Shown piece by piece: positions 2,063-25,790 of a stretch of 64,000 nucleotides of DNA. Each line of letters starts with the position of its first letter. Positions within the stretch are counted from its first letter, which is position 1. The stretch spans positions 25,682,727 to 25,746,726 of the forward strand of contig CM044958.1 of NCBI GenBank assembly GCA_024516035.1, in the 5' to 3' direction. A program made the position numbers and the translations under genes. The DNA comes from Bactericera cockerelli. Lineage: Eukaryota; Arthropoda; Insecta; Hemiptera; Triozidae. Under the pieces are notes generated by a model. The model did no database searches, had not been told where the DNA came from, and saw nothing but the letters and a program-made list of their open reading frames with translations.

Positions 2063-4940
2063 AAGACGATGAGAACGGAGAGCCAGGGAAAGCCAGTTCT
2101 TGTGATTACGTCATGCATATCTTAACTTTCGTTTGGAAGTTCATTTTTGCTTTTGTGCCACCTACCAGTAAGTTGAACATTTTCTACTCATGTGCCACCT
2201 ACCAGTAAGTAGAACATTTTCTACTCATGTGCCACCTACCAGTAAGTAGAACATTTTCAACTCATGTATTTGATGATGATCTCCACAAAACGACTTGGAT
2301 TGTCTTTGACTAGCACTTATTTTACGCCTTAAAACGATTTACCGTTTTTGGGTTCAAAACATAAATTACAGAGTTCTCTCAATGAAAGGTACCTATTACC
2401 TACCTACTGTTGAAAAATGGATATTTGTGGTTCCACGCCTCATTTTAGTCAGGGCCTTAAAACTTGTGCTTGTCTCATTCTAGTCAGGGCCTTAAAACTT
2501 GTGCTCGTCTCATTCTAGTCAGGGCCTTAAAACTTGTGCTCGTTTCATTCTAGGTAGGGCCTTAAAAACATCATTGTGTCTATTCAATGTTGTTAGACCT
2601 TCATCAGTTAATCTGACAGGGGACCATCACCTCAACTCTTGGCAACACCGCTTCTGTTCTTCCTCAGGTATATGTTCTGGCTACATCTGCTTCGTCGTGT
2701 CCATAGTGTGCATAGGGGTGCTGACAGCTTTCATCGGGGATCTAGCCTCGCACTTTGGCTGCAGTGTGGGGCTCAAGGACGCCGTGACTGCTATCTCCTT
2801 TGTAGCTCTAGGAACCAGCGTGCCAGGTGAGCATAGCATTACTTCGTAGCTCTAGGAACCAGCGTGCCAGGTGAGCATAGCATTACTTCCTAGCCGTAGG
2901 TACCAGCGTGCCAGGTGAGCATAGCATTACTTCGTAGCCCTAGGAACCAGCGTGCCAGGTGAGCACAGCATTACTTCGTAGCTCTAGGAACCAGCGTGCC
3001 AGGTGAGCATAGCATTACTTCGTAGCTCTAGGAACCAGCGTGCCAGGTGAGCATAGCATTACTTCGTAGCTCTAGGAACCAGCGTGCCAGGTGAGCATAG
3101 CATTACTTCGTAGCTCTAGGAACCAGCGTGCCAGGTGAGCATAGCATTACTTCGTAGCCCTAGGAACCAGCGTGCCAGGTGAGCATAGCATTACTTCGTA
3201 GCTCTAGGAACCAGCGTGCCAGGTGAGCATAGCATTACTTCGTAGCTCTAGGAACCAGCGTGCCAGGTGAGCACAGCATTACTTCGTAGCTCTAGGAACC
3301 AGCGTGCCAGGTGAGCACAGCATTACTTCGTAGCTCTAGGAACCAGCGTGCCAGGTGAGCATAGCATTACTTCGTAGCTCTAGGAACCAGCGTGCCAGGT
3401 GAGCACAGCATTACTTCGTAGCTCTAGGAACCAGCGTGCCAGGTGAGCATTATTGATTTGTGTTTTGATTTGCTTGAAAACCAAAAACTCTACAAGAACT
3501 TGAAAGTGTTATTCGACCTGAAAATCAATGTTATCCCCGAATACGTACATGTTGCAGGTAAACGCTATGCGCAACTTGAGAGAATGCATAAGCTTTAAAC
3601 TCATGCCTTCTGTATTGAAGCCAACATCTCCGCGATGTAATATTCAAAACATGAATGGTGAGTGTTTCAATAAATGACACTTTGTTTTCTTCAAAAAATC
3701 CTTTTTTTTATGAAGCTTCAGTATCGAAAATAGAGGTGTAGTATTGCGGCCAGTCACAGGCCAAATCTTATTTTGGTTTTCAGATTTCAATCAGTCTTGT
3801 ACATCGAAGATTGCTTCCAAATAAATGTTTGTTACGTTTCATAATTTACTAATGTTTTGTGTATTGAATAGATAGAACAAGAGGTACATATTTCAAAATT
3901 GTTCATAATAAATGGAGGTCCCTGTATGAACATTTTCAGATGAACTCCAATTTTACTATTCAACATTTCCTTATAATCACACCTCCCACCTCCCCACTCT
4001 AGACACATTCGCCAGTAAAGTCTCTGCTATCCAGGACAGCACTGCTGACAACTCAGTGGGCAATGTGACGGGGAGCAACGCCGTCAATGTGTTCCTGGGC
4101 ATTGGTATTGCCTGGAGTCTCGCTGCTGTCTACCATGCCCTCAACGGCAACTACTTCTATGTGGATCCTGGCAAGTAAGTCTCGCCTCTGAGCTGCCGGA
4201 AGCCTCTTTGGGAGCTATTTTATATGAAGTGCTTGGGGTCTTGCTGGGGTTTGTTAAATAGATGCGGTAACAGACATGTAAAGCCAAAAGACAATAGCAC
4301 AAATAATTGGTGTCCTGGTGTGCTTAACGAAGTCAATCATGAAGTTTTACCAATGTCAACCCCATGTAAAATTGAGAAAAGACAAAGGAGTGCTATTTCT
4401 GGTCATGATACAACCAAAACTGTTGTAAAAGAATGCCATTTTCAGGATGTTCAGTAAATTTCTAGGTTTCTTAGGTCACACGAGTCATACAATTCATACA
4501 TGTTTTCTAATTTATATTAAGGTCGGGTTCTACGAAAAACACCTAACCTAAAAAACACCTGAAAAACACAAAAAACGTTAGTTCCAAAGGATTCGTCAAG
4601 ATAGCGCCAGTAGAGTTTTGCTCTAAACTCTACTGGCGCTATCTTGACGAATCCTTTGGAACTAACGTTTTTCGTGTTTTTTAGGTTAGGTGTTTTTCGT
4701 AGAACCCGACCTAACTCGCTTCCACTTCCCCCCAGCCTCGCGTTCTCCGTCACTCTCTTCTGCTCAGAGGCATTCATCGCTATCCTCATCCTCATGGTGA
4801 GGCGCCACCGCTGCATCGGGGGTGAACTGGGAGGACCCACCATCTCCAAATACGTCACGGCATTCTTCCTGGCCAGTCTATGGCTGTTTTACCTCGTCAT
4901 GTCCACACTTGAGGCGTATGACGTCATCGAAGGCTTCTAA
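2063..4940 (+). CDS. Calx: Sodium/calcium exchanger (NCX/Calx), last four coding exons
   Basis: Four exons, 2063-2167, 2668-2826, 4003-4174 and 4736-4940, join in frame with GT-AG borders to give 212 residues ending in TAA; the N-terminal part lies outside the window. The protein is a plasma-membrane antiporter exchanging Na+ for Ca2+. Diagnostic stretches are DYVMHILTFVWKFIFAFVPP, LTAFIGDLASHFGC, the alpha-2 repeat VALGTSVPDTFASK followed by GNVTGSNAVNVFLG, and the terminal membrane helix ending LEAYDVIEGF. The first exon shown begins in the acidic linker after the cytoplasmic Ca2+-binding region. The next three encode the C-terminal membrane domain. Two exon ends (2167 and 2826) are the seeds of tandem arrays that repeat the splice donor. 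The last exon's 3' splice site abuts a hairpin MITE. Gene identity is very secure; the fly symbol is used by homology. Confidence 0.93.
2154..2264 (+). repeat. 37-bp tandem repeat carrying an NCX 5' splice site, 3 copies
   Basis: The unit spans the last 14 exonic bases (GTGCCACCTACCA) and the donor GTAAGT plus 17 intronic bases. Donor GTs fall at 2168, 2205 and 2242, exactly 37 bp apart. Copies two and three change 'gtaagttg' to 'gtaagtag', so the genuine exon is copy one, identified by frame. Confidence 0.9.
2440..2570 (+). repeat. Short tandem repeat of about 35 bp in NCX intron, about 4 copies
   Basis: The block 'tctagtcagggccttaaaac' recurs at about 2450, 2483, 2516 and 2553 (the last with 'taggtagggcc'). 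It sits about 100 bp upstream of the exon at 2668. It is a distinct unit from the donor arrays on either side. Confidence 0.7.
2801..3452 (+). repeat. 44-bp minisatellite of exon end plus 5' splice site, 15 copies
   Basis: The unit contains the last 26 bases of the NCX exon (encoding VALGTSVP) and the donor GTGAGC plus flank. Donor GTs recur every 44 bp from 2827 to 3443, giving exactly 15 copies (616 = 14 x 44). Copies are nearly identical, differing at gctct/gccct/gccgt and gcata/gcaca. Because 44 is not a multiple of three, including one extra unit in mRNA would shift the frame. Confidence 0.97.
4521..4711. mobile_element. Hairpin (foldback) MITE, 191 bp
   Basis: Two arms of about 90 bp are inverted copies of each other: 'ggtcgggttctacgaaaaac' at 4521 and its reverse complement ending at 4711, meeting around 4616. 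It carries no coding capacity. It ends 24 bp before the last NCX exon, within the intron's 3' splice-site zone. Confidence 0.9.
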
Positions 4941-5844
4941 ACCAACGTCATCTGATGCATTTGTTTAAATGTTTCTAAATAAGAACAATGAGAGGTTAAA
5001 TCTTCTAATCATGTACAACATACATGGTACTATTGTACTGTGCTTTTAACACATACCATAATATACAGAGTGTCCCATTATAAAAGAGACATTCAAATAT
5101 CTCGAGGTCTACTGACGATAAAAGAAAAATACCAAAAAATTATTTTCAAAGCTCTAAAAGAGACACTTAATGGTGACCTTGAGAAGTTTCTCAGATGACC
5201 CCTCCAAGGTTATTTTAAGCTCAACTTTGGAATTTTAAATCAACATCTTTCAGGAAATTTTTGGAATCCACACAAAATTTTAAGTTCAAAGAAATTCTTA
5301 CTAGTAGTTTTTGTCACATTTTCACACCCTTCTGGGAGTGTGAGATTTATTCTATCCTAGAATATGAGTGTGGCAAATCATATAATTTTAGGTGCTGAAC
5401 ACGATAATACTTTTTGGATCCATTATAATTGAGATACAAAAGAATAAGTACCTAAAATGAAAAATGATCTTTGGACAGATTTTTTTCTATCATCAGTAGA
5501 TCTCCAGATATTTGAATGTTTCGTTTATAAAACGTTCAACGCCACGAATCCCATATGTGATATTCAGGCAATGTTTAGACAGGCCGTAAAACCCATATTT
5601 GGGTTTCACCCACTTGTTGCTGTGGGCCACGTACTTTCAGGGTACTTTTTTTCGGTCAAGTAAAAAAGTGAAACCCAAATACGGTATTCAGCTCAAATTT
5701 AGGCGCTACAGTGAAACCCGTATTTGGGTCTCAGCCCAAATTTTGACAGTGCCTAAAATCAGCGTGGCCTATTCAGGCCATACCACAAACATGCCTTGGC
5801 GTTTATTTCATCGGTCAGATATTGTTACTACGAGAACCCAACAC
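4941..5844. other. Non-coding, dispersed repeat fragments
   Basis: The NCX 3' flank. At 5066 'acagagtgtcccattat' resembles the CAGGGTGtcc ends of the long-TIR elements elsewhere in the window. At 5590-5740 the phrase 'gaaacccaaatacgg/cccatatttgggttt' occurs in both orientations. No exon or RNA gene is recognised. Confidence 0.4.
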
Positions 5845-6350
5845 TATGTGGTTGAAGTTTTTCCAGAAGTGCTTCAAAACACAATGTGGTTGAAGTGTTT
5901 TTTAAAAGACATTGGGGTTGAAGATTTTCAAAACACAATTTGATTGAAGTGTTTAAAAACACAATGTGGTTTAAGGGCGGAATTAATAGACAACATCAAT
6001 AACTTAAGTCGTTGGTAAGTGTCGATTTTCCCTATCTTACACAGTACGCAATCCGTGACTTAGCGCCACAGAGGTATTACAAAAACGTCTATTAATTCCG
6101 CCCTTAGTGTTTCAAATCACAATGTTGGTGAAGTTTTTTCAAACAAAGTCGTTGAATTACTTCAAAACACAATGTGATTCAAGTGTTTTTAAAACACAAT
6201 GTGGTTGAAGTGTAAAAAGACAATGTTGAAATATTTCAAAATATAATGATGTTGAAGTGTTTTAAAACGCAATGTGGTTGAATTATTTCTAAACACAATG
6301 TGTTTGATGTGTTTCAAAACGCAATGTGCTTGAACTGTTTTCAAACACGA
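5845..6350 (+). repeat. Degenerate tandem repeat of about 25-30 bp, split by a MITE
   Basis: Variants of 'aaaacacaatgtggttgaagtgttt' repeat more than a dozen times on both sides of the inserted MITE at 5972-6106. Units vary in length and sequence, so this is an old array. Confidence 0.8.
5972..6106. mobile_element. MITE with TAAGGGCGGAATTAATAGAC terminal inverted repeats
   Basis: The left end TAAGGGCGGAATTAATAGAC is matched by its exact reverse complement ending at 6106. The 135-bp element interrupts the degenerate array. A related copy lies at 36618-36755. Confidence 0.9.
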
Positions 6351-8300
6351 TATGTTGATATTCAAATATAGTTTTTCATTAAAAGTTTGAACGGTTGCAT
6401 TGTAAAATGTGCAAGGAAAATTAGGGTTATGCATTATGTATTACTAAGTAATCAGCTCACCGTACATAAAAAATAATGTTTTTCTACAATTTCTACCTTA
6501 GAATAATGTATTTACCTACGATTATAGGTAGGTATAGATCAGGTACTTATGTAAAGTACCTGCCTAATATTATGAGCCCAAAGTATTATGTACTAGCTTA
6601 CCGATGTTTTTTCATCGATCATTTGAATTATTTTAAATAGGTAATTACTTAAATGTGTTGTTGATGTTTCGATTTTGTGTATTATTTTGTTTAAATTTTC
6701 AATTTTATCGTAAGTCCATAGTAAATTTGTTTTGTTAAGATGAGATAGAATATTGGTAACGTAGTAAGTGAGTTTATAAAATTTAGCTAAATAGAATAGA
6801 TGATATTATGTATTTACCTCCTAACCTAAAGTTACAAAGTGAAGTATTTATGAACATTCCACTATGTTTCATGGACTGTTCTTGGTATACAGTTAAATGG
6901 GTATAAAGATTAAAGTTTTCTTGCCTATTTAGAAAAATCTAGTTATTTGAAGTACGAATATACAGAACTTTTATTTCATTTATGGATTGCGAAAAATAAT
7001 TACGACAAAAAAATGCATGCATATTTCGCTGTCGCCATGCATTACTGACGAGGAGGCCGAACTGAAGACGTACGCCACAACATGTTCTTTCCAAGAAGGT
7101 AATGTCTATCTAAAGTCTGTTCCCAAACTTTATTCTCAACTTTTAATTCTGATTCACGAATAGGTGAAGCTATTACTGTTACACTCTATCATTGGATTAT
7201 AGAACATATCGTCAACGTGCTGGATTGATTCTTCCGCCAAAATGCTCCGAACGATTATGCTCGGTTATTATTTACATATATTAAATCTAATAAGTAGTAA
7301 TGTAAAAGTACCAATGTAAAAGGAGTTTACCTAGGCCTTTGAATTGCTAGCCTCTGATAAAGCCATTTTTTCACCTTGTGAGTTGTGTTGGAGTAAAATA
7401 AAAATCATAAAGGTAATGTGTCTATTTGTGTTGATATAGACTTTGTTTTATACGTTTTTTTCAAGTACAGTGATATCCTTTAAGATAATATCTAATATCT
7501 CCTCTATAGCTTAACTTTTTCTTCAATTTATTTAATTCCATTTCTTTCTCTTTTAGAAATTTAATTCTTTTTTCCATTAGTTTTATCCTGAAGTTTATTT
7601 GAGGAATTTTTCTATTGACAAAACTAGGAATTCTTGGGATTATGTAAAACTATAAGAGGCTTTTGTCGAACCATTCCTCAGGAAGGAACGACTCAAGTTT
7701 TGATGATGTAAACTGAGATTCCATAATTGCAATGAATTTTCTGTTATTATTGAAACAGTTGACATTTGTGATTTCATTAACTAATAATTTAATCTAATAT
7801 CGACTCTAAAAAGACTATGAGAATAAGTGATAATTTTAATGTTATCATTGTTTCCAGGATTTTAAAAGTGCCAGAATAATGGTTCGTTAATTAATTGTCA
7901 AATAAATTGAATCTTACAACTACCACGAGTATTTATAATTTATCTACCTTTTGACGTTAGAACTATTAGGTACTTTTACCATCTTCTTGAGTAAATAGGT
8001 CAAAAATATTGTTACGTTTAGAAACCTGTAAAAACAATAATATAATAATGTTAATAATAGATAGTAAAATATCATAACTTTTTAAGGACTAATTTTCATG
8101 AACTAGGTAGGTATCTAGCATATCTAATAGAAATTATATTATATTTATTATCATTTAGAAAAGGTGTTTTCACTTTCTACTAGGTACCTATTGCATTGGA
8201 AATCGTATTTTTTTATTGTTGCTAATAAACAGGTTGGTCCGGAAATATAATATGGACAACAAACTATATAATGTTACAATGTTACATACTTAGGTATGTT
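6351..8300. other. AT-rich intergenic stretch
   Basis: About 2 kb of AT-rich DNA with frequent stops in all frames. I see no exon, RNA gene or clear repeat structure apart from short 'taggtaggta' microsatellite-like runs. Confidence 0.4.
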
Positions 8301-8304
8301 GAAT

Positions 8305-8460
8305 CATTAAAAACAAAACATGTGTGATATCTTTCCCACAAGTCTCCTTATCACACGAAAAGAAGTCAATTAAATTTCGCGACTGGTGACTCAACGATAA
8401 CACAATAGCTTTCGGCCTCAAATTTTCGACGAATACTTTCACAAAACTTTCTTTATCATG
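8305..8460. repeat. Dispersed repeat fragment, family shared with 29936 and 61885
   Basis: Shared blocks are a 'gtgtgayatc..' start, a 'cacacgactttccttat'-like segment, 'gactcaacg..taac' and a 'cctcaaaatc'-like stretch. The family is unidentified. The copies are too decayed to define ends. Confidence 0.5.
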
Positions 8461-8686
8461 GGATAAGGAAATAAAAAAAAAGAACATTTCCATTCATACC
8501 TGTTTCATCTTCGTAATTTCCAATAAATTTGTAGTTTTTTTTTATCAGAGGTACTCTCAGTCTGTTTATATTAATACCAACAATATCTTTTTTCTACTAA
8601 TCGTTTTAAAAAACTTTTATTTTTGTAATCAGCACATACTTTGTTATCTAAAATCATCATTTCAACATGCCAGAAATAAACTCTTA

Positions 8687-8935
8687 CCTGCCATCGTCCA
8701 TAGCGCGTTGAATGCACCATATCACCGAAGTTAAGCAAAGTCCAGCGAGGTGAAGATTTCGTGATGCTGGCATTCCGGCCCAACCCAGGCTGGGTGAAAT
8801 TAATGTGGGTAACAGGTTTGTGAGTTTCCTGCAAATGGAGCGTAACACCCCCGTCGTGATATGACCATGTAGTTCAGTAGTTGAAAGCGACGTTAGGTAG
8901 GTATACCCGAATTACAAAAAAAAAAAAAAACTCTT
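8687..8935 (+). mobile_element. 5S-rRNA-derived SINE
   Basis: The head (8690-8755) matches 5S rRNA in order: 'ccatcgtccata', 'gttgaatgcacc', then 'atcaccgaagttaagca' (the internal promoter region). A body containing 'cccaacccaggctgggtgaa' follows, and the copy ends in an A-run at 8918-8933. Related copies lie at 52683-52942 (minus) and 63931-64000 (plus), and a relic lies at 41350-41580. Confidence 0.85.
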
Positions 8936-9125
8936 ACGTAAACCTAGTTTAACTGGTTATAAGAGACAAACTAAGAACTGAACTATTAGTTGAATCTTAC
9001 ATTTTTTCCGTCATATTATTTGCTGCAATTTTTCCTCGATTTGAAATATGGCACTGACCAGAAATAACATGATTGTGTAAATCATGAATATTAAATCGAT
9101 TGCAGAATGCAAATATCAAAGAAAT

Positions 9126-9505
9126 TCTTAAGAACCTATGTTGTTACCGCTCGCGTGGGAGGTAAGTACATCACTTGTATGCAGGAAACAATTGTAAGTT
9201 GCTAACATTCCTCCTCTAACATTGATTGTTTGACCAATATTTACAGCAGGGACTTGACGAGCAGGCCAGGATTTCAGGTTCCCGCAGTCATAGGAAAATA
9301 TTTTTTTTTTTAAGTACTGACTACCAACTTTTGTGCGTTCAGCTGTGTAACTCGGACACTGCTCATCTACGAGAAAAAAGTTCTTCAGCAAATGGAGACA
9401 CGACAGGTGGTGGTATTTCACCGGGTAGGACCATACACCATCTGGCCAGGACCTAGGACCTACGACTTCCCCTTCGTCATCACTGCTGTCATAAAATTCA
9501 TACAT
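9126..9505 (-). CDS. Unrecognised minus-strand frame with acidic N-terminus (low confidence)
   Basis: An open frame starts at ATG 9505 and gives about 125 residues (MYEFYDSSDDEGEVVGP...). Upstream of the ATG the frame is a poly-A run, and a longer version would need a TTG start. The acidic DSSDDEGE head resembles the leader of many domesticated or active transposases, but I recognise no catalytic motif. It could be an eroded exon of a DNA transposon or chance. Confidence 0.2.
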
Positions 9506-9549
9506 TTTTTTTTTTCGACAAGCGAGTCTACGTAGACTTGCTAGCAATT

Positions 9550-10577
9550 AATTAAAAAATTTAATTAACCAAAGAATTTTCAGAAGGTTTGAAATATTTT
9601 TTTGCAAAACAAAAAAAATAAATTAATTAGACTTACCAATTTAACAAATTTAATGAATAATTTACAAGCATAAACGTTTGTAACACTTTGGGGTTTACTC
9701 ATAAAATGACTTTCAGAAAGTTCAAAAATGGAAATAATGGTTGGTAGGTATACATCGGTCACCCAGTTCGATTGAAATAAAACATAGTTTGCTATCGTGT
9801 GAGACTGTTCTGGACACAATCAAATAAAATCAAACACCTCGGCCGAGGTGTGAAGAACGCCTATACAAAGAAAGAGACATCCCGGCAGAGTGTAAGGTTA
9901 CGGAAAACATAGTTCCCATGCATTTCATGTACTTTCAGCCAGCGAAAAGTGCAACATGAATTTCAAAAATCGCGATTTTTATTGCAGAAATGGGCTCTAC
10001 GTTGAAAAATAAGTTGATTTGACTCTTTGTTTGACTTCCTAGGCCACCGGGAACCCTATTTTCGAGACCCCCCAACAATCGTGAAAGACATGAAAAGATT
10101 CATAATTTTTTTTTTTTTCTGTTTTTTTTTTTCATACGGATCCTTTGAGACCCGACTTCGTGTCTTTAACTTGGCACTGAAGATTAAGTGAGGTGTCTAA
10201 AGTGATCAAGATATAATGGAGATGAGCCCGGACCAAAAAAAAATTCTAAATTATAAGCGGGCGGCTCATTTGGGCGGCCTCGGGTTTTGGGAGCCCAAAT
10301 CGGGAATTGAAGGATAATACTAATCTTAAGTGGTATCAAATGAAAGATCTTGATGAGCAGATACCAAATTTATTGATTTTATTCCTTCATCCGGTCCACT
10401 GGGTGGTACCTGGTGGCCTTTTCATTTTCTTTGGCGGGTAGGTACCTTCGAATCCTTAGCTTAGTGGTCAGATCTTGGCCAGTATGTATTTTTCGAGATG
10501 ACCTCGCTCTCTCACTGCAAAATTTTAATGTTTAAGTTTCCAAGTATTAATTTAGTTCATTTTCCGCCCGTTTCTTT
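9550..10577. other. Non-coding intergenic stretch
   Basis: No supported exon. Short poly-T tracts occur at 10108-10131. The block around 10020-10480 is less AT-rich and could be a decayed retroelement tail, but nothing diagnostic is visible. Confidence 0.35.
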
Positions 10578-11040
10578 AGAAGATAACTTTGTCTATTGGT
10601 AGCATGCTCGACCTGCCACCCAGTCAGCATGGGTTCGAATCCTGGCGGGGACGAAACTTTTTAGCTCTATATTTTCAATTTGGGCTTAACGTTGTTTTGC
10701 TTTTCCGATCTTTATATTTGATCTTCATGACGACCCCATTACCCTCGCGAGGAAAATTTTAGTAGTTGCGGAAATTGGGCAATGACCTGTGGCGGCATTA
10801 CGAGATTGATTTTGGACAATCATGGTTGGATGGAGATAAAATATGATGAATTAGCTCTCATAATGTCGATGCTACTCACTAAAAGTTGTGACAAAGTAGT
10901 GACTGTGCCAATTGGGTAGCATACTAGGCTTGCACGCATGATGACTTGGGTTCGATCCCCTTCAGGGAAGTTTTTTTTCTCTGTTCTTTTTTTCTCATGT
11001 CCGGGGTACACTCATACCTCGTGAGGTATTGATAAGGGAC
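10578..11040 (+). mobile_element. Two tandem copies of tRNA-derived SINE family A
   Basis: The first copy (about 10578-10892) has a tRNA-like head with B box 'gggttcgaatcctgg' and the family tail 'gcgaggaaaa...ctactcactaaaagttgtgaca'. The second (about 10893-11040) has B box 'gggttcgatccc' and 'tcatacctcgtgagg'. The same family occurs in better shape at 39918 and 48418. Confidence 0.75.
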
Positions 11041-11169
11041 GTCACCACCGAGTTCTCTCCCGCTCATGGTTTTATCAACACCAAATTGTCTCCCGTCGCG
11101 TCGCTTGGATTTTTACCTGATTTTATACATACATAGTTTAGGCCTAGCATAAAAATTATAATCGAAACA

Positions 11170-11400
11170 CCTAGGAATCATTGATATAGACCTGAGGCAT
11201 GGCCTTTTATGTATTTTTCCTAACCCTATGATAAACCCAAGGCATGGCCTATATATTTACCTAACCCTACTATAAACCCGAGGCATTGCCTTCTATGTAT
11301 TATCCCTAACCCTACTATATTCCTGAGGCATGGCCTTCTATGTATTTTACATAACACTACTACCTATACACTGAAGGCATTGCCTTTCATTAGTTAGAGA
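11170..11400 (+). repeat. Degenerate tandem repeat, period about 50 bp, about 5 copies
   Basis: The unit contains 'gaggcatggccttctatgta' followed by 'cctaaccctactata'. Variants recur from 11190 to 11390. The embedded CCTAA motif looks like insect telomere repeat but occurs only once per unit. Confidence 0.7.
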
Positions 11401-13657: not shown

Positions 13658-13670
13658 ACACGGCACCACC

Positions 13671-16600
13671 ATGGATATCATAACAGAAGCAGAGAAATAC
13701 ACTGTTGACAGCAATGAAGTGGTTGAATTCAAAATGGGTACAATCTTTTATAAATACCTTCCTAATTAACTATCATATCACAATTCAGAAAAAAAAGACT
13801 GGGGCCCAAGTGCATAGTTGCTAATTCAAACAACTTTATACACAATCAAATGACTAATATTATTGCTTAATCAGGTTGTTAGTGAATATGCACTGTAATA
13901 ACTCTGTAGGCTCAAGATTGTTGTAGTGGCATAGGCTATACCAAATTATAACCGACCTCAGTAGCTTGATCGATAAGGCGACGGACTTGTAACCTGGAGG
14001 TCGGTGGTTCAAGTCCCGGTTTCAGGGTAGATTTAGTAAAGTGAGTTTGAGTAGTTGTGATATCACAAAAGTGATTAACACAAATATGATAACTATACCA
14101 AATTATTATGATGGTCTCTAACTTGTTCAGTAAAAAATAATTTCAGTGTGTTATGTCTTTCTAATATTAGAGAGAATTGTCACACACAGCTATTCCCAGC
14201 TTGTCCTGACCTACTTGTCAAGAGTGATTTGATGTGGGACCAACCATTGTGAGGACTTTTGTCTTCTTTATTTGTTTCAATCTTATTTAAACACTAGAAA
14301 TTGACCAGCTAGCTAGGCTGGATAAGGGTTTATTACTGTTAGTTGCCTTGGATAATAGGTAAAAAAATCCATTTTGTTATTATTTCCCTGGTACCACACT
14401 GTGAGCTCATTGATTTTACATACTCTATTTAACATGTTGATATGCTTTTGTTCATATATTGATTGTGCTCACATTGTAAGAAAATTTAGCTCAATTTAAT
14501 GGTATATCTAGGTTAGGTTTGTGGTAAAATTTGAAGACTGAGTTTATTTTATTATGAAAACAGGCTCATGCAATGTTTGAAATTTGTGGTTTACCAACAT
14601 GTGGTCTTACATTAAACATTTGTCCCACATCATTAAATTATCTATCTCTGGATTTATACATTAATTAATGATAAATAGGTAGTGTGCGGTATGGTATATT
14701 TTACAGTACATGACCAATTTACACAAAAAAAAGAACAATAACAATTTTTTTTTACAGTAATACCATTTGACAGAGCTGCATTGTTTTTTCTATCCTTGAA
14801 GTTAATATTTATTAATTATTTATTTTATTATTTCCAATTTCAGTGAAAAAAGTGTCTGATTTGGAAAATGATTTGTGTTCCTTTAAACCAGAAATGTCTC
14901 ATCAAATATTTGGACAACAGTAAGTATATATGATATATTTAAGTATTTTTTTTTTACATAAAATTGGTCATACCTAGTTAAAGTTGTTTGCATGGTCACT
15001 TCAAGAACACATTATCAAAAATAATTAAAGATCATGTTTTATAATTATATAATATGTAAGTAACTACATACTTTCATAATCAAACTTATCACTAAATTAA
15101 TGCACTTTCCATTACTTATATAACTACCTGATGAGGTTGATGCTCAAAATCTTTTCTACCACCTAGTCCTTAAAGTATTATTAATTTGTGGTGACATACT
15201 CAAATAAATGAGGAAAAAGTGCAAGCATAGGTAGGTTATTCAATCCACAGATCAATGTTCTTCCTTACCTATTTGCATTACAAATTTAGTGTCCTGTCCA
15301 CATCTGGTAGTTACCAAAGCTTCACATGATTAGAAAGAAGCATCGTTTTCGTAAAGAAGGGTATTTTGAGAGTGGTAATTTTTGGGAAAGGGACAAAGGT
15401 GTCTTGTTTTCAGGTACTCTGAGCAATGCAACATAGTGGATAAATCTGGGAAAAAAAAAAAAAAAAAAATCAGTTTCTAACAAAGGATTCTTAGGGACAT
15501 GTATTGTTTTGTTCCAATATTATTCTTATTTTTTGATAAAAAGTGTAAATTGTATTCATTAGACTAATTACTTCCAAGAATATCTAATATTATGTAGATA
15601 TTAGAAAATTGTGTTTGTTTTTGTAAAAATAAATAAATACATTTTGTAACCTTCTGAGCAATCATTTTACTGATTTCACTCACAAGAACTAATGCTATTT
15701 GATGGTTTTTACATTTGTTTGTTATTTTTTATTTCAGAGAAACCATATTTGGATATCTAGACTTGAGAATCAAGCTGTATTTCACTGCTGGAAGATTGTT
15801 CGACTATGTAAACATTGAATACACAGATAAAATTGATCCAGAACAATTCAATGGAGTTAAGGTAATTTTTCAAGTTATTAATTATTATATTATTATTAAA
15901 TATGTTAGATCATAATAATCATGAAATGTCAGAAAGTTACTACCACTGGGAACTGTGTATTGAGCTGATACCTACTCAAAATTACACCTCTCTGAGAAAC
16001 TCCTTATTTCAGGTCCTCTTTTTCATGAAGTACTCAAAGTTGAACTCTTGTGATGGCTATTCTCAATTTAAACCAGGTAGAGTTGGGTTAATATTTTGTA
16101 AGTTTTCACATCATGGTGTAAACCCCATTTGGAAGAGAGAAAAAAATAAATATTGCAAGATAAAGATGTAGGTAAGTTGGCATTGCTACTATAGCCCAGA
16201 CTTAGACAATATTTTATTTAATTATAAATGTATGTCCCTGAGGCAATCTTTATATCTTATTTCCCCAGCCAGATGATATTCATGAGGCATTGAAGAAGCT
16301 GTACAACTTTGAGATGAATACTAATTTAGACAAGTTTGTGGCGTCCATTGATAAGGAACCCCTTTTCAAACCTAGGGAGAACTCATACATAGCTTCAAGC
16401 ATATCACAGGTATTTTTTCCGTTTCTTTTAGTTTATCTTTTAAAATTAAAAGTAATTTCAAACAAAAATAAGTTTGTTATAATTATGTATAAATCTATAA
16501 ATCTCTTTTGAATAACCCGTATGTGTTTTAAGCAGAACAGTTACAAGTTACAGCATTGAAAATTGACATTATTTTCAGAATTCTGGTTCTAATAACAATA

Positions 16601-19600
16601 CTTTCAATTACTTACCTGTATTGGTCACATTTGCTGGAAAATGATTGTTTTGCTTTTCAGTGAGTGAGGATGGAGACCATAGTGAGAAAACATATGAACT
16701 GTTCAGTGTGCAGACAGTAGACCCAGAAATTGTCTCCTACCTGTCTCGTGTGCAGCCATTTCTTCTGTGGTACATTGACTGTGCTTGCTTTGTTGATACC
16801 GATGATGACCGCTGGTCCTACTTCTTCCTGTAAGTCCACTATTTTTACATTCCTTATCCTATAATAAGGAAAGTATTGTATTTATCGAAAATTTGACCTA
16901 TTCAGTTTCTTACATTTCTGAACAAATCAGTGATACCGTACTAGTGCCTTATGCCTATACCCCTGAACGACCAATATATATTAAACAAGAGCTACATCAC
17001 AAACAAGTATAGTTCGAGAATGTGCAGTGTCAGTAGATTATTATACATAATTGACTGTTCTACTGGGAAATTTAATTATATTTTGATTTTTTTTTTTTAA
17101 TCAGCCTTCCTTAATAATTATCTCCAGCAAAGTATGAGATGATTGTGGGGGCCCAAGATATGCAAGTAATCCTAAGAGTTATGGAATGGACTGTCTGGTT
17201 TTATTGCTCACAATGGAAACATTTATTTTTATTTATTTACACTTTATTTTTTATACAATACATACAACAATAAATTATTAACAAAGATAGAAAAAATTAA
17301 CAATAGGTATTAAAAAAAAATAAGATATAGAAAAAATAAATAAATTTAAATTGTCATGAACATTATAATATGACTTTCAGCTTCGAGAAGTACTCCAATG
17401 AGAACCAGGAAACATGCTATGGGCTGGTGGGCTACGCCACAGTGTACAAATACTACACCACCCCCTTCTCCCTCCCCCCCAAGTGGAGACCCCGCATCAG
17501 CCAGCTGTTTGTCCTCCCCCCCTACCAGGGCTCAGGGCTGGGGCCCCGCCTCTATGACTCCATATGCCGTCGCTTCCTACAGGACCCTCACGTGATCAGC
17601 ATTACAGGTGAGAGCCACAAAATAAATAAATATCTACATATTTTATGTATATATTTATTTATTTTTTGTTATCATATAATTATAATGTATATATTTATTT
17701 ATTTTTTCTTTATTTTTTTCTTCTATTATATTGTATTTTAATTTGTAATTATTTGTATTGTATATAATATGTCCTATCAATAAAGTGTAAATAAATAAAT
17801 ATGTGATAAGCATTGCAGGTGAGATAGCCTTATGTGATCAGCACTACAGGTGAGATAGCCTTATGTGATCAGCATTACAGGTGAGATAGCCTCATGTGAT
17901 AAGCATTACAGGTGAGATATGTAGCCACATGTGATCAGCACTACAGGTGAGATAGCCTCATGTGATCAGCATTACAGGTGAGATACCCTCACGTGATCAG
18001 CATTACAGGTGAGATAGCCTCATGTGATCAGCATTACAGGTGAGATACCCTCACGTGATCAGCATTACAGGTGAGATAGTCTCATGTGATCAGCATTACA
18101 GGTGAGATAGCCTCACGTGATCAGCATTACAGGTGAGAGCCACATGTGATCAGCATTACAGGTGAGATAGCCTCACGTGATCAGTATTACAGGTGAGATA
18201 GCCTCACGTGATCAGCATTACAGGTGAGAGCCACATGTGATCAGCATTACAGGTGAGATAGCCTCACGTGATCAGCATTACAGGTGAGATAGCCTCACGT
18301 GATCAGCATTACAGGTGAGAGCCACATGTGATCAGCATTACAGGTGAGATAGCCTCACGTGATCAGTATTACAGGTGAGATAGCCTCACGTGATCAGCAT
18401 TACAGGTGAGAGCCACATGTGATCAGCATTACAGGTGAGATAACCTCACGTGATCAGCATTACAGGTGAGATAGCCTCACGTGATCAGCATTACAGGTGA
18501 GAGCCACATGTGATCAGCATTACAGGTGAGATAGCCTCACGTGATCAGTATTACAGGTGAGATAGCCTCACGTGATCAGCATTACAGGTGAGATAGTCTC
18601 ATGTGATCAGCACAACAGGTGAGATAGTCTCATGTGATCAGCACAACAGGTGAGATAGCCTTATGTGATCAGCATTACAGTTGAGATAGTTTCATGTGAT
18701 CAGCACAACAGGTCAGATAGTCTCATGTGATCAGCATTACAGGTGAGATAGCCTCATGTGATCAGCATTACAGGTGAGATAGCCTCACGTGATCAGCATT
18801 ACAGGTGAGATAGCCTCATGTGATCAGCATTACAGGTGAGATAGCCTTATGTGATCAGCATTACAGGTGAGATAGCCTCATGTGATAAGCATTGCAGGTG
18901 AAATAACCTCATGTGATCAGCATTACAGGTGACATAGCCTCATGTTATTAGCATTACAGGTGAGCAAAAAACAGAAGAGGTTTTTGACAGAATCTCTAGA
19001 GAGATAAAATTGAGATCTTTTGCAAATGTAGAGAGAAGATAAATAACTATGCGAGGAAGAGATTTGAATGATTAGAGTGAAATAGAGTGAGACCATAGTT
19101 CAGATAGAGAGAATGCAAGTACATATGTACTAGAAAAGGACAAAACTGTGGTTAGCAAAATCAATGATGTGGTTAGCAAAATCAAAGTAGATAGTAAACA
19201 TTTCTGGAAATTCTATAAAAACAAGAAAGCCCTATCTAAAAAAGATACATTAAGATACAATGGAATAGAAATCACTGACCCTCAAAATATTGCTGACTCG
19301 TTTGCCACTCATTTCTTCAGTGCTTACAACCATGCCACTCCACCTAACGTCCATACAACCGAAACATCAGATTTTATATCATACATACACATCGATGAGA
19401 TCACAGAAAAAGATATCGAATCAGAAATAAAAAACATGGACACCAACAAACCAGCAGGAACTGATGAAATACCCCCTATTTTCTTTAAAAAATGTTTAAA
19501 ATCTATAATAATACCACTTATTTACATTTTTAACTCAGCCCTAAAAAACTCTCTATTTCCCACTAAACTAAAAGAGGCTATGATAACCCCGGTACCTAAG

Positions 19601-21013
19601 AAATCTTCCACTGAAATCTCAACATTCAGACCTGTTTCAAACCTGAATGCAATAGCAAAGATATTGGAAGGTATTCTTTACTCAAAAATCTCCAATCATG
19701 TTTTATCCATCATATCGAAAAATCAGCATGGTTTTGTTGCCGGTAGATCAACAGTGACAAACCTTGTTGAATTCTGCCACTATACCTCAACAACAATGGC
19801 TGAAAACAATCAAGTAGATGTTATCTACACAGATATACAAAAATGTTTTGATCAGATCTTTCATACAGCGATCATAAATAAATTAAGGTCCGCAGGATTT
19901 TCACCTCCCCTTGTAACTTTTCTCAATACCTATCTGACCAACAGAATAAACCGCGTCATTTGGACAGACCTGGAGGGACATAATAAGTACTTGTCACGTT
20001 CTTTCAGTCCTCCATCTGGAATTGGTCAGGGGTCGAAGTTGAGCAGCCTCATCTTCATTCTTGCATATGATGACCTAAAACATCACATATCTCACTCAGA
20101 ATACAAACTTTATGCTGATGACATTAAAATTTATAGAATAATCAATAAGACAAGTGACTGTGACTTACTACAAAAGGACCTCGATTCTCTACATCTTTGG
20201 CTAAACTCTATTGGACTACATTTTCATCCAGACAAGTGTGCCAAAATGACTTTCACATACAAAAAACATAAAATTGAACACACATACAACGTTGACAATA
20301 CCCCTCTGCAAGAAAAATCATCAATCAAAGATCTTGGTGTTGTAATAACTAACAATTTATCTTGGAATAAACACATTGAACAAACAACTAAAAAAGCCTA
20401 TTCTACCCTAGGCTGCATAATACGCCACTGTGATCCCATAGACGACATGGACGCTATACTCCTTCTATATAAATCCTTAGTGCGTTCCATACTTAACGCC
20501 TCTGTTGTATGGTGTCCTCAAACCCAAATAAATAGAAAAAAAGTTGAAATCATCCAGAAAAAATTTGTTAGGTACCTTTTCTACAAGCTAAATGGTTTCT
20601 ACCCAAAGTACCCTAACTACATACCCTACAATTCATTAATAGAAAACATTCCTATAGACTCAGTCCAATCAAGATTTGACCAAAACCAAATTTCATTTCT
20701 ACTAAAATTACTAAGTCACAAAATAGATAGTCCCTACATCCTCTCCAATCTCAATATTCATGTACCAAAACCTAGATTACGTCCCAACATCTCTACCTTT
20801 TTTAGTATTCCAATATCAAGAAATAACCATCATTTAAAATCTCCCATTAACCATATAATGCACCATTATAATACATTAAACCCTAAACCTGACATATTTT
20901 AATATAATGTTGGGAATAATGTACCTAATTATAACTTTCGTTTTTAGTAAAAACATTTCAGTTATTGCTGTGTTTTGAACCATTTACGGTCGAAACACAG
21001 TGTTGAAATTACG

Positions 21014-21047
<34 letters not shown>

Positions 21048-21896
21048 AACCGATCCTTTGGTTAAGGGGAAGTATAAAAATATATTGCTAAGAGGGAACT
21101 TAGTATTTTTCCCCTATTTTTGTGATAGTTTTATGTCCTCATTAACAAAGCTCAACCTCTTTAACTTCTAGTGGAAGACCCTTCAGAGGAATGCCAATAT
21201 CTGAGGGACTACGTAGATGTTAGCAACTGTGCCAAGCTGTCTGGCTGGAGTAAGCAAGATCTGCTCAAGGGCTACTCACCTGCCATGGAAAAGCAAGTGT
21301 ATGAGGAACTGAAATTGTGTAAAGTAAGTTAGTTTCTTATTATGTGCATGGCTATGGTGCTAGTTTGTGTACCAGAGGGTCTTCTCTAAATTCCAAAGTA
21401 AATATTTTTGTACCATATTTCATGAAAACTCGTGAAATATCTGTGAAAGGCTTAATTTATTAATAATACTTTTGTTGATGCTTCATAAAACTTGGTTTGT
21501 TCTGATAGATATTTTTTTTTCAATTAATAAAGCCATAAAAAAATGAATGAAAACTTGTAGTTGACCAATTCATATCATACAAGTAAGACTAACTAAAAAC
21601 ATAGATTTTCACCAGGATCGCCTCACGTCCTGCTAGTGTCCCCAAAATGGAATTAGTTGTGTTTTATAAATTGTCATGCTATATTTTAGAATTCAAGCTT
21701 TTCTCAGGTACCCTAAAATTGCTAAGTTATACAACAAAGTACTCGCTTCCACAGGTATTCCTCAAGAAATTATAAAGAATGAAAATAAAATAGATCCTTC
21801 AATACCAGCCATTTGTCTACTATGCCAGAATACAAACCATGATGTACAGTTGTACACTAACTCTTCGCCTGCCCAGCCATAAGCACAACTCTAGAT

Positions 21897-21929
<33 letters not shown>

Positions 21930-24796
21930 CTTTATTACGTAGAACAAAAAGTATATGCAGTAGAACACAATGAAATATAAAGAAAAAACAAAAAGATTAA
22001 ACAAATATACAAGAAGGAAAAAAACAGAGAAATGTCCTACCTAAAGGGCGGGGTTATTGCCTGTGGCAATCTCTTCCACCATATCCCTCTGGAGAGATCC
22101 CGTTCCATTGTCGGCATTACTTGACTTGGGGCCACATTATAGCTAAATCAAAGTTCAGCTAAACCAGACACGCCCTCAAAATGGAGTTTCAACCAATCAC
22201 AGAGCATGATAGCCCGAGTTGAGGGATAGTGTCCACTTGATTAAATCCTATTCTGTTTTAATAATTCGGCCCTTAGAAACAGACCAGTGATGTAGACGAC
22301 AACTTGAACAACAACATAAGTATAAATAATATTTTGCACAAATCCAAGAGAATAGAACAGATAACATGTCTGTCCCTGTAGCTCAGTGGTAAAGGCGGCA
22401 CTCTGTGAATCCAGAGATTCCAGAGGTCGTGGGTTCGAAACCCAGCCGGGACATGACATGTTATCCTACCATTTGGGATTTTTACCACATAATAATCTGT
22501 CTTGGGCTTTACTGCTTTAATAATGGGACTTTTAATAGTCCTAATCTTAAACTTCAAGTAATGATATTTTTCGGTTCCAAGTGCGGTTAGCTTTTAGAGA
22601 AGGTGGGTTTTTAGTGGATGGAAATCCCACACCCCAGGATCTGGGTGTCTTTGAAAGATTTTTTCCTGCCTTCCACTAAAAAAAAAAAAAAAAAAAAAAA
22701 ATGGTCCTAATCGGGCAGTATAAATAAGACGATATTATTATTATTATTTTAGTGGTGGTTGACTATTATATTATTATTATTATTTTAGTGATGGTTGACT
22801 GCTATATTATTATTATTATTTTAGTGATGGTTGACTGTTATATTATTATAATTTTAGTGGTGGTTGACTATTGTATCAAATTCATGTTTGAATTATTTTC
22901 ACTACAGAAACAAGCGCGTCGTGTGTACGAGATCCTACGCCTTGGCGCCACCAACACGAGCAGCCCCCTCGAGTACAAGAAGTACAGACTCCTGGTGAAG
23001 AATAGACTCAACGCGCCGCATCAGGTACTGAGCCCCGCCCCCCCACACTGGTTTACCATGTAGGAGGCCCGGGTTCGAATCCCAGCCGGGTATAAGTATA
23101 AGTAGTGCTTTATTTAGACTGTGAGCGCAAGACAGGTAGTCCCATTATGCCAACAGTTTAACAAAGCACCTCTTTATTCATTTGAGTATAAATACAATGT
23201 AATAAAATAACAACAATTAGAGAGTAAAGATAATGAAAAACAAGAAAAGGAAATAATAGTGGAAGATAGTATAACAATAGTAGAAATTATGGTAGTTAAA
23301 AGAAAAGCAAAAAGAAAGTAGAAATCTAAATCTACCCTGGATGTACGACGGGGTAGTGTGGTACACTCATATAGTATCCCTCTTGACGCGAAATGCTTTA
23401 TTAGTAGGATGAATAATGATCGGATGTGACATTAGGGGGGAACAAAGAGACGTTTTTGTAATACCTTAAACGGCTCAAACTTTAAATTTACTCAATCTCA
23501 TAATATGTCTAAACTTTTAGCGTATCTCATAAATAAAACTCTACACAGGTAGTTAAAAAAACAAAATGGGTGAAAATTAAATAATATTTTCATTTTTATC
23601 CACTTCTTCTTCTTCTTCTCACCGAACCAAAAGCCATGACCGAACCACCGAACCAAAAGTCAGGATTTTTCAGTCTAGTCAAATAAAAAAAAGTGAATTT
23701 CAGTGACCAGGTCAGCTCCGGTCCGCTTCGTTCAAAGAAACCCCGCTTTTAGTTGAATTGTATTATGCGTAACAACACAAACAGTCATAATAAAATGGCA
23801 TGTTGTCTTTTGTATACGAAAATTTTAATGTATAAAAATACCCTAAACACTTCGCAACACAGCTTGGAGACTAGGTTTTTTTGGACAAACAGTGTTACGT
23901 TTTCAAGCAATCAGAAACAAGAAATATGTTCATGATGTTACTTTTCAAAACCCATAATATAATTAAACTCTTATATGTAGTTATAAACAATAAAAAGTTT
24001 CAACTTAAGCCAACGTTGAAAAGTTGGCTTGTTTTAAACCTTTTTCTTACCTGAACTTTTCTTTCTCTCTATTTGTGATCAACCATCGAGAGAACTTGGG
24101 CTTTCTCTTTATAAGCCATCAGCTCTTGCGAAACTGCAAGCTAGCCGGGAGAAGAAAGCCAGAGCCTGAAAAGACTCTTGCTTCAACACAACTTTACAAC
24201 TTACAACTTAAGTTGGCTTGTTCTGATTTCTGAACCTTTTTATTTCCTGAACTTTTCTTTCTCTTTATTTGTGATCAACCATCGAGAGAACTTGGGCTTT
24301 TTCTTTATAAGCCATTAGCTCTTGCGAAACTGCAAGCTAGCCGGGAGAAGGAAGCCAGAGCCTGAAAAGACTCTTGCTTCAACACAAATAACTATTCTTA
24401 CTCGTGGACTTACCGACCTCAGTAGCTTGATTGATAAAGCGGTGGACTTGTAACCTGGAGGTCGGTGGTTCAAGTCCCGGTTTCAGCAAAGATTTAGTAA
24501 AGCGAGTTTGAGTATATGTGACATCGCGAAAGTGATTAACACATGTATGATAACTTTAAAAAAAAAAAACTTTAAAAAAAACTTACTCGTGGACTTTCTG
24601 TTCCATTGTGTCACAGAAAGACGTGAACTACCAGAAGCGCCTGAACAAGGTTCTGAAGCCAGAGGAGATGCGGACGTTCTCTTGCGTGGACACGGAGCAG
24701 CAGAGGAAGGACAAGCTACACAGCGAGTACAAGGACCTGGAGAAGGCCTACCTCAGAGTCTTGGACCGAATCAACCACCATCCCTTCCACAACTAG
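13671..24796 (+). CDS. HAT1: Histone acetyltransferase type B catalytic subunit (HAT1), complete, nine exons
   Basis: Exons are 13671-13737, 14844-14919, 15738-15861, 16269-16409, 16669-16829, 17381-17607, 21172-21323, 22908-23024 and 24617-24796: 1245 bp, 414 residues, close to the usual HAT1 length. The enzyme acetylates newly made histone H4 at Lys5/Lys12 together with an RbAp46-type partner. The N-terminal half carries [17 protein letters not shown] and [20 protein letters not shown]. The GNAT core has [17 protein letters not shown], with the acetyl-CoA loop QGSGLG near residue 239, followed by [10 protein letters not shown], which holds the conserved catalytic Glu. The C-terminal helices include [16 protein letters not shown] and [12 protein letters not shown]. 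The exon 5 acceptor is uncertain: AGs end at 16660, 16664 and 16668, and only 16668 keeps frame with exon 4. Intron 6 holds a 31-bp array and a LINE. The stop codon is the seed of a 39-bp array. Confidence 0.95.
13951..14095 (+). mobile_element. tRNA-derived SINE family C, in HAT1 intron 1
   Basis: The tRNA-like head (accgacctcagtagcttgat... with B box 'ggttcaagtccc') is followed by the constant tail 'atttagtaaagtgagtttga...gtgattaacacaaatatgat'. Near-identical copies lie at 24412 and 55245. Confidence 0.88.
17625..17805 (+). repeat. AT-rich insertion between HAT1 exon 6 donor and its satellite array
   Basis: About 180 bp of T-rich then A-rich DNA ending '...caataaagtgtaaataaataaat' separates the true exon 6 donor (17608) from the 31-bp array. 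The composition resembles the 3' tails of the LINE fragments at 50283 and 63125, so this is probably an inserted retroelement tail. Confidence 0.5.
17806..18964 (+). repeat. 31-bp minisatellite of exon end plus 5' splice site, about 38 copies
   Basis: The unit 'cctcacgtgatcagcattac' + 'aggtgagatag' repeats the end of HAT1 exon 6 (coding HVISITG) with its donor GTGAG. I count about 38 units, mostly 31 bp, with 29-bp variants bearing 'gagagccacatg', the form found at the real exon. Between 18110 and 18560 the order 29-31-31 recurs, and a 'cagtatt' variant marks every sixth unit (about 182 bp). Nearly every unit keeps ACAG|GTGAG. Confidence 0.96.
18965..21045 (+). mobile_element. 5'-truncated jockey-type LINE with reverse transcriptase frame, in HAT1 intron 6
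   Basis: A 584-codon frame (19148-20902; extends upstream of the GTG at 19148) encodes a non-LTR reverse transcriptase. Motif A is [11 protein letters not shown]. Motif B is [13 protein letters not shown], where GxPQG is usual. Motif C is YADD in LYADDIKIY. The C-terminal thumb has the usual [18 protein letters not shown], and a short 3'UTR ends in poly(A) at about 21015-21043. No endonuclease domain is present, so the copy is 5'-truncated, as is normal for LINEs. It inserted beyond the last unit of the 31-bp array, same strand as HAT1. Confidence 0.9.
21324..21895. other. HAT1 intron 7, unique part
   Basis: AT-rich intronic DNA. A short frame at 21676-21882 (ending [13 protein letters not shown]) resembles the C-terminal cysteine region of LINE ORF2 but is too short to assign. 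Confidence 0.35.
21896..22090 (-). mobile_element. LINE 3' end fragment, minus strand
   Basis: A T-run at 21898-21925 is the poly(A) tail read from the other strand. It is followed by 'cctaaagggcggggttattgc' and 'ggcaatctcttccacc'. The same 3' block occurs at about 40210-40390 (minus), 50240-50430 (plus) and 62020-62075 (plus). Confidence 0.7.
22371..22748 (+). mobile_element. tRNA-derived SINE family B, interrupted by a small retroposed insert
   Basis: The tRNA-like head 'gtccctgtagctcagtggta' and B box 'gggttcgaaaccc' are followed by the tail 'cctaccatttgggattttta'. The tail is split after 'gtcctaatc' (22538-22546) and resumes at 22713 'gggcagtataaataag'. Uninterrupted copies at 25034 and 51494 confirm the join. 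Confidence 0.9.
22547..22703 (+). mobile_element. Short poly(A)-tailed retroposed insert with 9-bp target duplication
   Basis: About 157 bp, ending in an A-run (22677-22701), sits between two copies of 'gtcctaatc' (22538-22546 and 22704-22712). This is the mark of LINE-mediated retroposition. The source RNA is not recognised. Confidence 0.85.
22740..22875 (+). repeat. Tandem repeat of about 40 bp just upstream of HAT1 exon 8, about 4 copies
   Basis: The unit 'ttattattattattttagtg' + 'atggttgactgctata' occurs four times. Each copy carries 'ttattttag', which looks like a 3' splice site, and the array ends about 35 bp before the real acceptor of exon 8 (22907). Confidence 0.85.
23045..23100 (+). 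mobile_element. tRNA-derived SINE fragment in HAT1 intron 8
   Basis: Only the B-box region remains: 'cccgggttcgaatcccagcc', followed by 'gggtataagtataag'. It begins about 20 bp after the exon 8 donor. Confidence 0.55.
23101..24000. other. HAT1 intron 8, unassigned
   Basis: Intronic AT-rich DNA. A decayed duplicated phrase 'accgaaccaaaag' occurs at about 23624 and 23650. No exon is seen. Confidence 0.35.
24003..24387 (+). repeat. Tandem duplication, period about 192 bp
   Basis: Two copies of a block running from 'agttggcttgtt' through 'gatcaaccatcgagagaact' and 'gcaagctagccgggagaag' to 'gactcttgcttcaacacaa' lie head to tail in HAT1 intron 8, about 95 percent alike by eye. Confidence 0.9.
24412..24581 (+). 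mobile_element. tRNA-derived SINE family C with 15-bp target duplication, 20 bp before HAT1 exon 9
   Basis: The head 'accgacctcagtagcttgat' and B box 'ggttcaagtccc' are flanked by CTTACTCGTGGACTT at 24397-24411 and again at 24582-24596. Exon 9 begins at 24617, so the insertion lies in the 3' splice-site region of intron 8. Confidence 0.93.
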
Positions 24797-25790
24797 GTAT
24801 ACCACAGAATCAACCACCATCCCTTCCACAACTAGGTATACCACAGAATCAACCACCATCCCTTCCACAACTAGGTATACCACAGAATCAACCACCATCC
24901 CTTCCACAACTAGGTATACCACAGAATCAACCACCATCCCTTCCACAACTAGGTATACCACAGATCAACCACCATCCTTCCACAATAGATACACAGAATC
25001 AACCACCATCCCTTCCACAACTAGGTATACCACAGTCTGTCCCGGTAGCTCAGTGGTAAAGGCGGCACTCTGTGAATCCAGAGAATCCAGATGTCGTGGG
25101 TTCGAAACCCAGCCGGGACATGACAAGTTATCCTCCCATTTGGGATTTTTACCACATAATAATATGTCTTGGGCTTACTGCTGGAATAATGGGACTTTAA
25201 TAGTCTTAATCGCACAGTGTAAATAAGGCGATATTATTATTATTCCACAGAACCAACCACCATCCCTTCCACACTGGTATACCACAGAATCAACCACCAT
25301 CCCTTCCACAACTAGGTATACCACAGAACAACCACCATCCCTTCCACAACTAGGTATACCACAGAATCAACCATCTCTTCCACAACTAGGTATACCACAC
25401 AAAAACGCAAACCACCATCCCTTCCACAACTAGGTATACCACAGAACCAACCACCATCCCTTCCACAACTAGGTATACCACGAATCAACCATCTCTTCCA
25501 CAACTAGGTATACCACAGAACCAACCACCATCCCTTCCACAACTAGGTATACCACAGAATCAACCATCTCTTCCACAACTAGGTATACCACAAAACCAAC
25601 CATCATCCCTTCCACAACTAGGTATACCACAGAACCAACCACCATCCCTTCCACAATTAGGTATACCACAGAACCAACCACCATCTCTTCCACAACTAGG
25701 TATACCACAGAACCAACCACCATCTCTTCCACAACTAGGTATACCACAGAACCAACCACCATCCCTTCCACAACTAGGTATAGCACTCTG
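24762..25790 (+). repeat. 39-bp minisatellite seeded at the HAT1 stop codon, about 20 copies
   Basis: The unit 'accaccatcccttccacaac' + 'taggtataccacagaatca' begins with the last codons and TAG stop of HAT1 (HHPFHN-stop, 24796) and runs into the 3'UTR. A SINE (25034-25245) splits it. The period is 39 bp = 13 codons, which leaves long repetitive frames open on both strands. Each unit holds AG|GTATAC and CCACAG, i.e. donor-like and acceptor-like sites. Confidence 0.95.
25034..25245 (+). mobile_element. tRNA-derived SINE family B inside the 39-bp array
   Basis: It starts 'tctgtcccggtagctcagtg', has the B box 'gggttcgaaaccc' and ends 'gcgatattattattatt'. 'ccacag' on both sides (25030-25035 region and about 25246) is probably the short target duplication. 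Confidence 0.88.

Follow-up and report, generated by a model that had tools for sequence, protein, structure and literature searches.

Tandem arrays at exon ends in NCX and HAT1 of the psyllid Bactericera cockerelli and their likeness to amphioxus mirages

Exon-end arrays in NCX and HAT1

A stretch of 64,000 nucleotides from the psyllid Bactericera cockerelli (contig CM044958.1, positions 25,682,727 to 25,746,726 of the forward strand, in assembly GCA_024516035.1, which comprises 565 Mb in 1032 contigs), hereafter the window, carries the genes NCX and HAT1, in which tandem arrays of short units overlie the ends of coding exons; these arrays, together with comparable ones in other loci of the genome, are the subject of the present analysis. 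The available text of PMC12203342 gives three other psyllids genomes of 588–656 Mb with 13 pseudo-chromosomes. Psyllid proteins are the nearest named relatives among the matches listed: the NCX of the window is 91% identical to that of Diaphorina citri (best 120 of 2492 matches), and its HAT1 is 81% identical to D. citri and 78% identical to Cyamophila willieti (best 120 of 284 matches). The exons and arrays of both genes lie on the forward strand. NCX exon A (2063..2167) was placed from its open reading frame and relatives' proteins, with the phase of the junction set by eye, and exon B (2668..2826) by direct reading and relatives' proteins; HAT1 exon 6 (17381..17607) was placed by reading and from a transcript-derived protein, and the last HAT1 exon up to its stop codon (24617..24796) by comparison with the same protein.

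Four arrays in these genes, proposed by an earlier sequence-only reading, were recovered by Tandem Repeats Finder (TRF) together with direct reading of the units, and three of them bear a 5' splice site and one the HAT1 stop codon, as that reading had stated. Array 1 (2154..2267) consists of 37 bp x3.1 over the exon A donor between 2167 and 2168, each unit joining 14 exon nt to 23 intron nt, while array 2 (2798..3450) consists of 44 bp x14.8 over the exon B donor between 2826 and 2827, with units that combine 29 nt of exon with 15 nt of intron, CAGGTGAG being intact in 15 of 15. Array 3 (17801..18964; 31 bp x37.7) is made of copies of the end of HAT1 exon 6 with its donor, each unit taking 22 nt from the exon and 9 nt from the intron; the genuine exon end, at about 17586–17616 and with the donor between 17607 and 17608, serves as its first copy, and about 184 bp of AT-rich sequence separate this single copy from the array body, where some 38 more follow. 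The body shows a 31-31-29 super-unit, and CAGGTGAGA is present in 34 of the 39 HAT1 units. Changes from the consensus number 4 and 7 in the starting units and 3, 2 and 4 in the final ones, and 0–3 in the others apart from one with 5, so that the most divergent units lie at the edges and the whole looks like ordinary minisatellite growth. Array 4 (24768..25786) repeats the end of the coding sequence in 39-bp units, each comprising the last 29 coding nt including the stop (TAG at 24794–24796) and 10 further nt; it lies at a non-splice site, which scores 2.8 as a donor in comparison with 1.3–12.2 for the 11 NCX and HAT1 donors (by a weight matrix) and is classed as a non-donor. The copy numbers proposed earlier stand for the first three arrays, whereas that of array 4 depends on the count, being 26 by TRF and 20 by recognisable steps. 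Array 4 is split by an insert at about 25033–25240, which begins like a tRNA (gtagctcagtggtaaagg) and by eye resembles sequence around 22370 as well as an inverted stretch near 51700.

Parts of the earlier description require correction. The arrays do not start exactly at the exon end, since their starts lie 14–29 nt inside the exon; moreover, that description omitted two arrays of the same genes that TRF finds wholly within introns, namely 35 bp x3.7 in the intron of array 1, away from exon ends (2439..2567), and 36 bp x4.1 in intron 7 of HAT1, which stops 31 nt short of exon 8 (22732..22876). Units differ from array to array, each being its own local exon and intron sequence; the earlier statement that they are unrelated is upheld by this reading of the units, and a single spreading satellite was rejected on it, no genome search with the units having been made. 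The ends of the duplicated segment share TGT, by eye, at array 1, and no homology is clear at array 2.

Repeats span 3 of the 11 donors of NCX and HAT1, where the share of their introns that first copies cover predicts 0.38 (P 0.005), an excess that is biased because these genes are the discovery set, and 0 of their 12 acceptors (0.38 expected). No TRF array of score at least 50 lies on any of 8 donors placed by eye in three other genes of the window, which brings the donors with an array to 3 of the 19 examined there.

The effect of the arrays on expression can be read from a 417-aa protein, predicted from contigs of at most 1433 bp, which is 97% identical to the HAT1 of the window (the query containing one X) and whose source is taken as spliced RNA because contigs of that length cannot contain the introns. 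This protein crosses from exon 6 to exon 7 without repeat units and ends in HHPFHN like the window gene; HAT1 therefore uses, in array 3, the donor copy next to the exon and, in array 4, the first of the stops, and, judged from this protein, regular splicing is undisturbed at array 3. The support for the NCX junctions is that of relatives' proteins, and in the KIF21-type gene described below (L043) the gene model keeps the frame open through five exons when the first donors and the last acceptor are used. Splicing thus seems to ignore the array copies. Near the end of HAT1 exon 4 (16269–16409), the frame diverges from the transcript-derived protein P0121, which may reflect an assembly error or a real variant.

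Arrays at splice sites in other loci

Exon boundaries were further scored in 14 kinesin loci, which were chosen for closely spaced exons from the loci behind 85 kinesin matches before their DNA was viewed, and whose exon ends were placed by script and eye. A boundary was scored as spanned where a direct repeat within 3 kb, 20 bp or longer and no less than 82% identical, covered at least 5 bp on each side, and the expected number was derived from the proportion of intron positions in these loci that belong to a first copy. Donors that could not be placed were excluded (the third exon of L031, the last of L033, the second and third of L034, the second and fourth of L036, the third of L040 and the last of L043), as were two repeat matches of one L039 exon, boundaries less than 60 bp from the end of a locus, and L044, a copy of L043; exon 3 of L030, where the array begins 8 nt into the intron, and exon 4 of L043, where it begins at the GT, were scored as not spanned. 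On these terms, 5 of 45 donors are spanned (L031, L039, L041 and L043 twice), compared with 1.2 expected (P 0.006–0.007). The P value lies between 0.003 and 0.009 across four flank settings and between 0.002 and 0.005 without the paralog L038, and matching for GC content gives an expectation of 1.55 from the same loci or 1.17 from random loci without L019. The cases in L031 and L041 are two-copy duplications rather than arrays. Acceptors show no excess, with 2 of 53 spanned (L039, L043) and 1.5–1.8 expected (P about 0.5).

An arbitrary sample of eighteen 10-kb stretches at round coordinates (180 kb) yielded further cases. In L019, which was examined closely because two of its arrays bore donor motifs, the end of a membrane-span exon and its donor form 69-bp units repeated along about 2.7 kb, and the end of the following exon is present as partial copies and 33-bp units; the gene is presumably Dscam-like, a name given from its FN3 and membrane-span sequence. 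A transporter-like exon in L023 carries a 47-bp x28.8 array over its acceptor, and no arrays were found at the exon ends of the cuticle-protein-like and peptidase-like genes of the sample. Among the genes of this sample, which were partly noticed for their arrays, 2 of 7 donors (0.19 expected) and 1 of 10 acceptors (0.42 expected) are spanned.

Unit numbers differ between gene copies. L043 and L044 represent two copies of a gene of KIF21 type, the L043 frame being 66–68% identical to vertebrate KIF21B-type proteins over the whole query (the top match by E-value is a nematode protein, at 50%), and their aligned pieces are mostly 96–99% identical, falling to 88–93% across some arrays. Their donor arrays hold 7 versus 5 units and 13 versus 8 units, and the acceptor unit of exon 3 occurs in 7 copies in L043 and in 1 copy in L044, with no clear segment-end homology by eye at the L043 acceptor. 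Similarly, the 57-bp unit that is repeated about 3.5 times in L030 is single in its paralog L038, and TCATT stands at both ends of the segment.

The kinesin loci show some further features. Kinesin matches lie in near-equal pairs on the same chromosome (C1 63.2/64.7, C3 24.42/24.59, C6 25.1/25.9 and C5 26.9/27.6 Mb), which may be recent duplications or unpurged haplotypes, the DNA of both members having been examined for the C1 and C3 pairs. The kinesin exon region of L039 at 5856–7400 (minus-strand coordinates) holds several partial copies of its start, inside and end, in units larger than those of the other arrays, and L041 carries a 32-bp-step array in mid-intron, away from boundaries, at 848–1400 (minus-strand coordinates).

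Over the whole genome, three copies of an 8-mer at 20–50 bp steps were sought. The donor 8-mer CAGGTGAG gave 4008 such matches and its backward pattern 121, the donor 8-mer CAGGTAAG gave 1614 and its backward pattern 111, and CAGAGGTG, a dinucleotide-preserving permutation, gave 375 with 402 backward; tandem triples of the two donor 8-mers are therefore 4 to 36 times as numerous as those of the four control 8-mers (111–402). As single motifs, the 8-mers are alike in number (in 160 kb, both strands: CAGGTGAG 5 and backward 3, CAGAGGTG 5 and backward 10, CAGGTAAG 6 and backward 2). Because match counts over-weight long arrays, arrays were also counted by eye among the first matches listed: the two donor motifs yielded 6 arrays over the initial 15.7 Mb of C1 and 10 over its initial 31.9 Mb, respectively, compared with 13 over about 150 Mb for the permutation (binomial P values of 0.007 and 0.003 for the donor motifs), these counts being approximate and including some neighbouring look-alikes.

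Relation to known repeats and origin of the arrays

The sequence-only reading knew of no described system of this type, although the amphioxus 'mirages' match it; these are minisatellite-like tandem duplications of exon-intron boundaries with intact splicing and variable length, described in the available text of PMC3087553 and PMC3902484 for Adh3, the globins BflGb6 and BflGb9, PGBD5 and TnC. According to the same text, many mirage units contain AG/GT, either the 5' or the 3' boundary may be involved, units in Adh3 measure 10–72 bp, and length is unstable between alleles and, in Adh3, somatically. Arrays 1–3 likewise span an exon-intron boundary with AG/GT in units of a size resembling Adh3, and both 5' and 3' boundaries are hit in other loci (the acceptors of L023, L039 and L043); arrays 1–3 fit the mirage description in the features that could be compared. 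Unit number varies between near-identical KIF21 copies, which lie outside the window and may be haplotypes or duplicates. The differences from that description lie in the host, which is an insect rather than a lancelet, in arrays of up to about 39 units, in the counts made over loci and genome, and in a probable donor bias; array 4, moreover, is a repeat of this kind that sits at a stop codon with no intron boundary. In segmental duplications, human genes (available text of PMC2812944) also carry internal tandem repeats at exon-intron boundaries, in minisatellite units of about 30 bp, and these are tied there to novel introns or alternative splicing, neither of which was seen in the present arrays. 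The gain of introns through tandemly duplicated AGGT sites (the Rogers model; a potato case, PMC4974935) likewise involves a duplicated segment bearing AG/GT, whereas here the duplicated site is an existing donor and no new intron results. A partial survey of the open-licence literature found no insect report of such arrays, and the terms 'tandem repeat' and 'minisatellite' are absent from the available text of the psyllid genome paper (PMC12203342).

The preferred reading, which is given a probability of roughly 0.6, is that the arrays are mirage-type minisatellites, that is, duplications of exon ends that are seeded more often at 5' splice sites and then tolerated. In such a process, as gene copies with and without the array suggest, a segment of about 30–70 bp across an exon end would be tandemly duplicated, with 0–5 bp of end homology in the cases examined, and the array would then expand or contract through slippage or unequal exchange, a step that has support. 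Splicing would keep to the donor copy nearest the exon, or to the final copy where the array lies on an acceptor, and translation would end at the first stop, as the transcript-derived protein shows for HAT1 and gene models indicate for NCX and KIF21, so that the remaining copies would be intron or 3' untranslated region and would be tolerated. Duplications may finally be seeded, and not merely tolerated, more often at 5' splice sites, because the donor excess exceeds what GC content explains; a co-transcriptional source, such as an R-loop or the repair of a nick where exon and intron meet, would be the likeliest guess. The arrays would thus belong to a known but seldom noticed kind of minisatellite that is common in the present genome and probably biased towards donors.

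The donor bias is probably real and has survived most tests, each of which is modest or indirect, and several observations weigh against it. In the kinesin sample alone, donors and acceptors do not differ significantly (Fisher p 0.24), 6 of the 14 loci have nothing at any noted boundary, and arrays at acceptors exist. Among 23 complex arrays from the 180 kb of arbitrary sequence, a small sample scored with the weight matrix, no excess of donor motifs was found (3 seen, 3.1 expected at score 7). The pattern counts favour long arrays and do not place them at exons; L043 and L044 may be haplotypes, products of gene duplication or partly an assembly effect; and first-copy coverage increases with GC content in introns and in random sequence, which accounts for part of the excess. 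The donor-acceptor contrast and the result for the 23 arrays weaken the bias in particular. The over-representation of exon 3' ends proposed earlier is supported, having withstood the tests on kinesin donors and 8-mer triples, with that contrast, the arbitrary arrays and the acceptor cases counting against it. The same GC dependence and the same 23 arrays, together with the position of array 4 over a stop rather than a splice site, would be expected from a passive filter, in which GC-dependent duplications arise everywhere and the exon-anchored ones are tolerated, the first donor or stop being still functional, and remain recognisable longer, as one copy is selected, without any splice-linked bias. 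This explanation is nevertheless judged rather unlikely, given 5 spanned kinesin donors in comparison with a GC-matched 1.55 (or 1.17) and the tandem excess of donor 8-mers over controls; furthermore, tolerance alone should not raise donors above introns, because introns are tolerant too. A wider proposition is that, in psyllids, tandem duplications genome-wide arise more readily at 5' splice sites through a mutational process linked to splice sites or to transcription, whereby exon ends would be local hotspots of mutation from which introns continually grow; this is a tentative possibility.

Other explanations carry far less weight than a seeding bias or a passive filter. The window was chosen as striking, and the 23 arrays without motif excess would suit chance with selective noticing, or assembly artefacts, but chance in one window is unlikely, independent loci are alike (L019 and the kinesin loci), and the array units carry different substitutions and super-units, unlike simple assembly stutter; such an origin is improbable. 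Decoy or regulatory donor arrays under selection might be suspected from the intactness of the donor motifs in arrays 2 and 3, which recent homogenisation also predicts; with copy number varying freely between near-identical genes, some copies lacking arrays and no support found, a function of this type was rejected as very improbable. The birth of an intron caught in progress, as suggested by the sequence-only reading, is the least probable of all: the units carry AG/GT and the mirage authors propose such a route (available text of PMC3087553), but the arrays sit in introns that are already spliced, the donor and the stop in use in HAT1 are the first copies, and its protein contains no new junction, on which ground this origin was rejected.

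Until now, mirages have seemed a peculiarity confined to a handful of genes in lancelets. In the present insect genome of 565 Mb, donor motifs match in tandem thousands of times and an array may be present in one of two near-identical gene copies and absent from the other, which offers a means to measure where short tandem duplications start, and could show if mutation is concentrated at splice sites and with what frequency such arrays extend introns or give rise to new ones. Such arrays are also a warning for gene annotation, because every array copy presents a false donor.

Other features of the window

Just past array 3, positions 18990–20902 form a long open stretch, which by eye resembles a non-LTR (long terminal repeat) retrotransposon reverse transcriptase. 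A repeat at 1000–1660, with at least 42 matches in the genome (40 of 322 candidates scored), is probably part of a mobile element. TRF further reports a 129-bp unit x2.0 at 44650–44908, whose copies are 99% alike and whose ends look palindromic by eye, as well as several kilobases of 15-, 21- and 27-bp repeats at 56846–61385, where the minus strand looks, by eye, as though it encodes a Met/Pro/Gly-rich protein.

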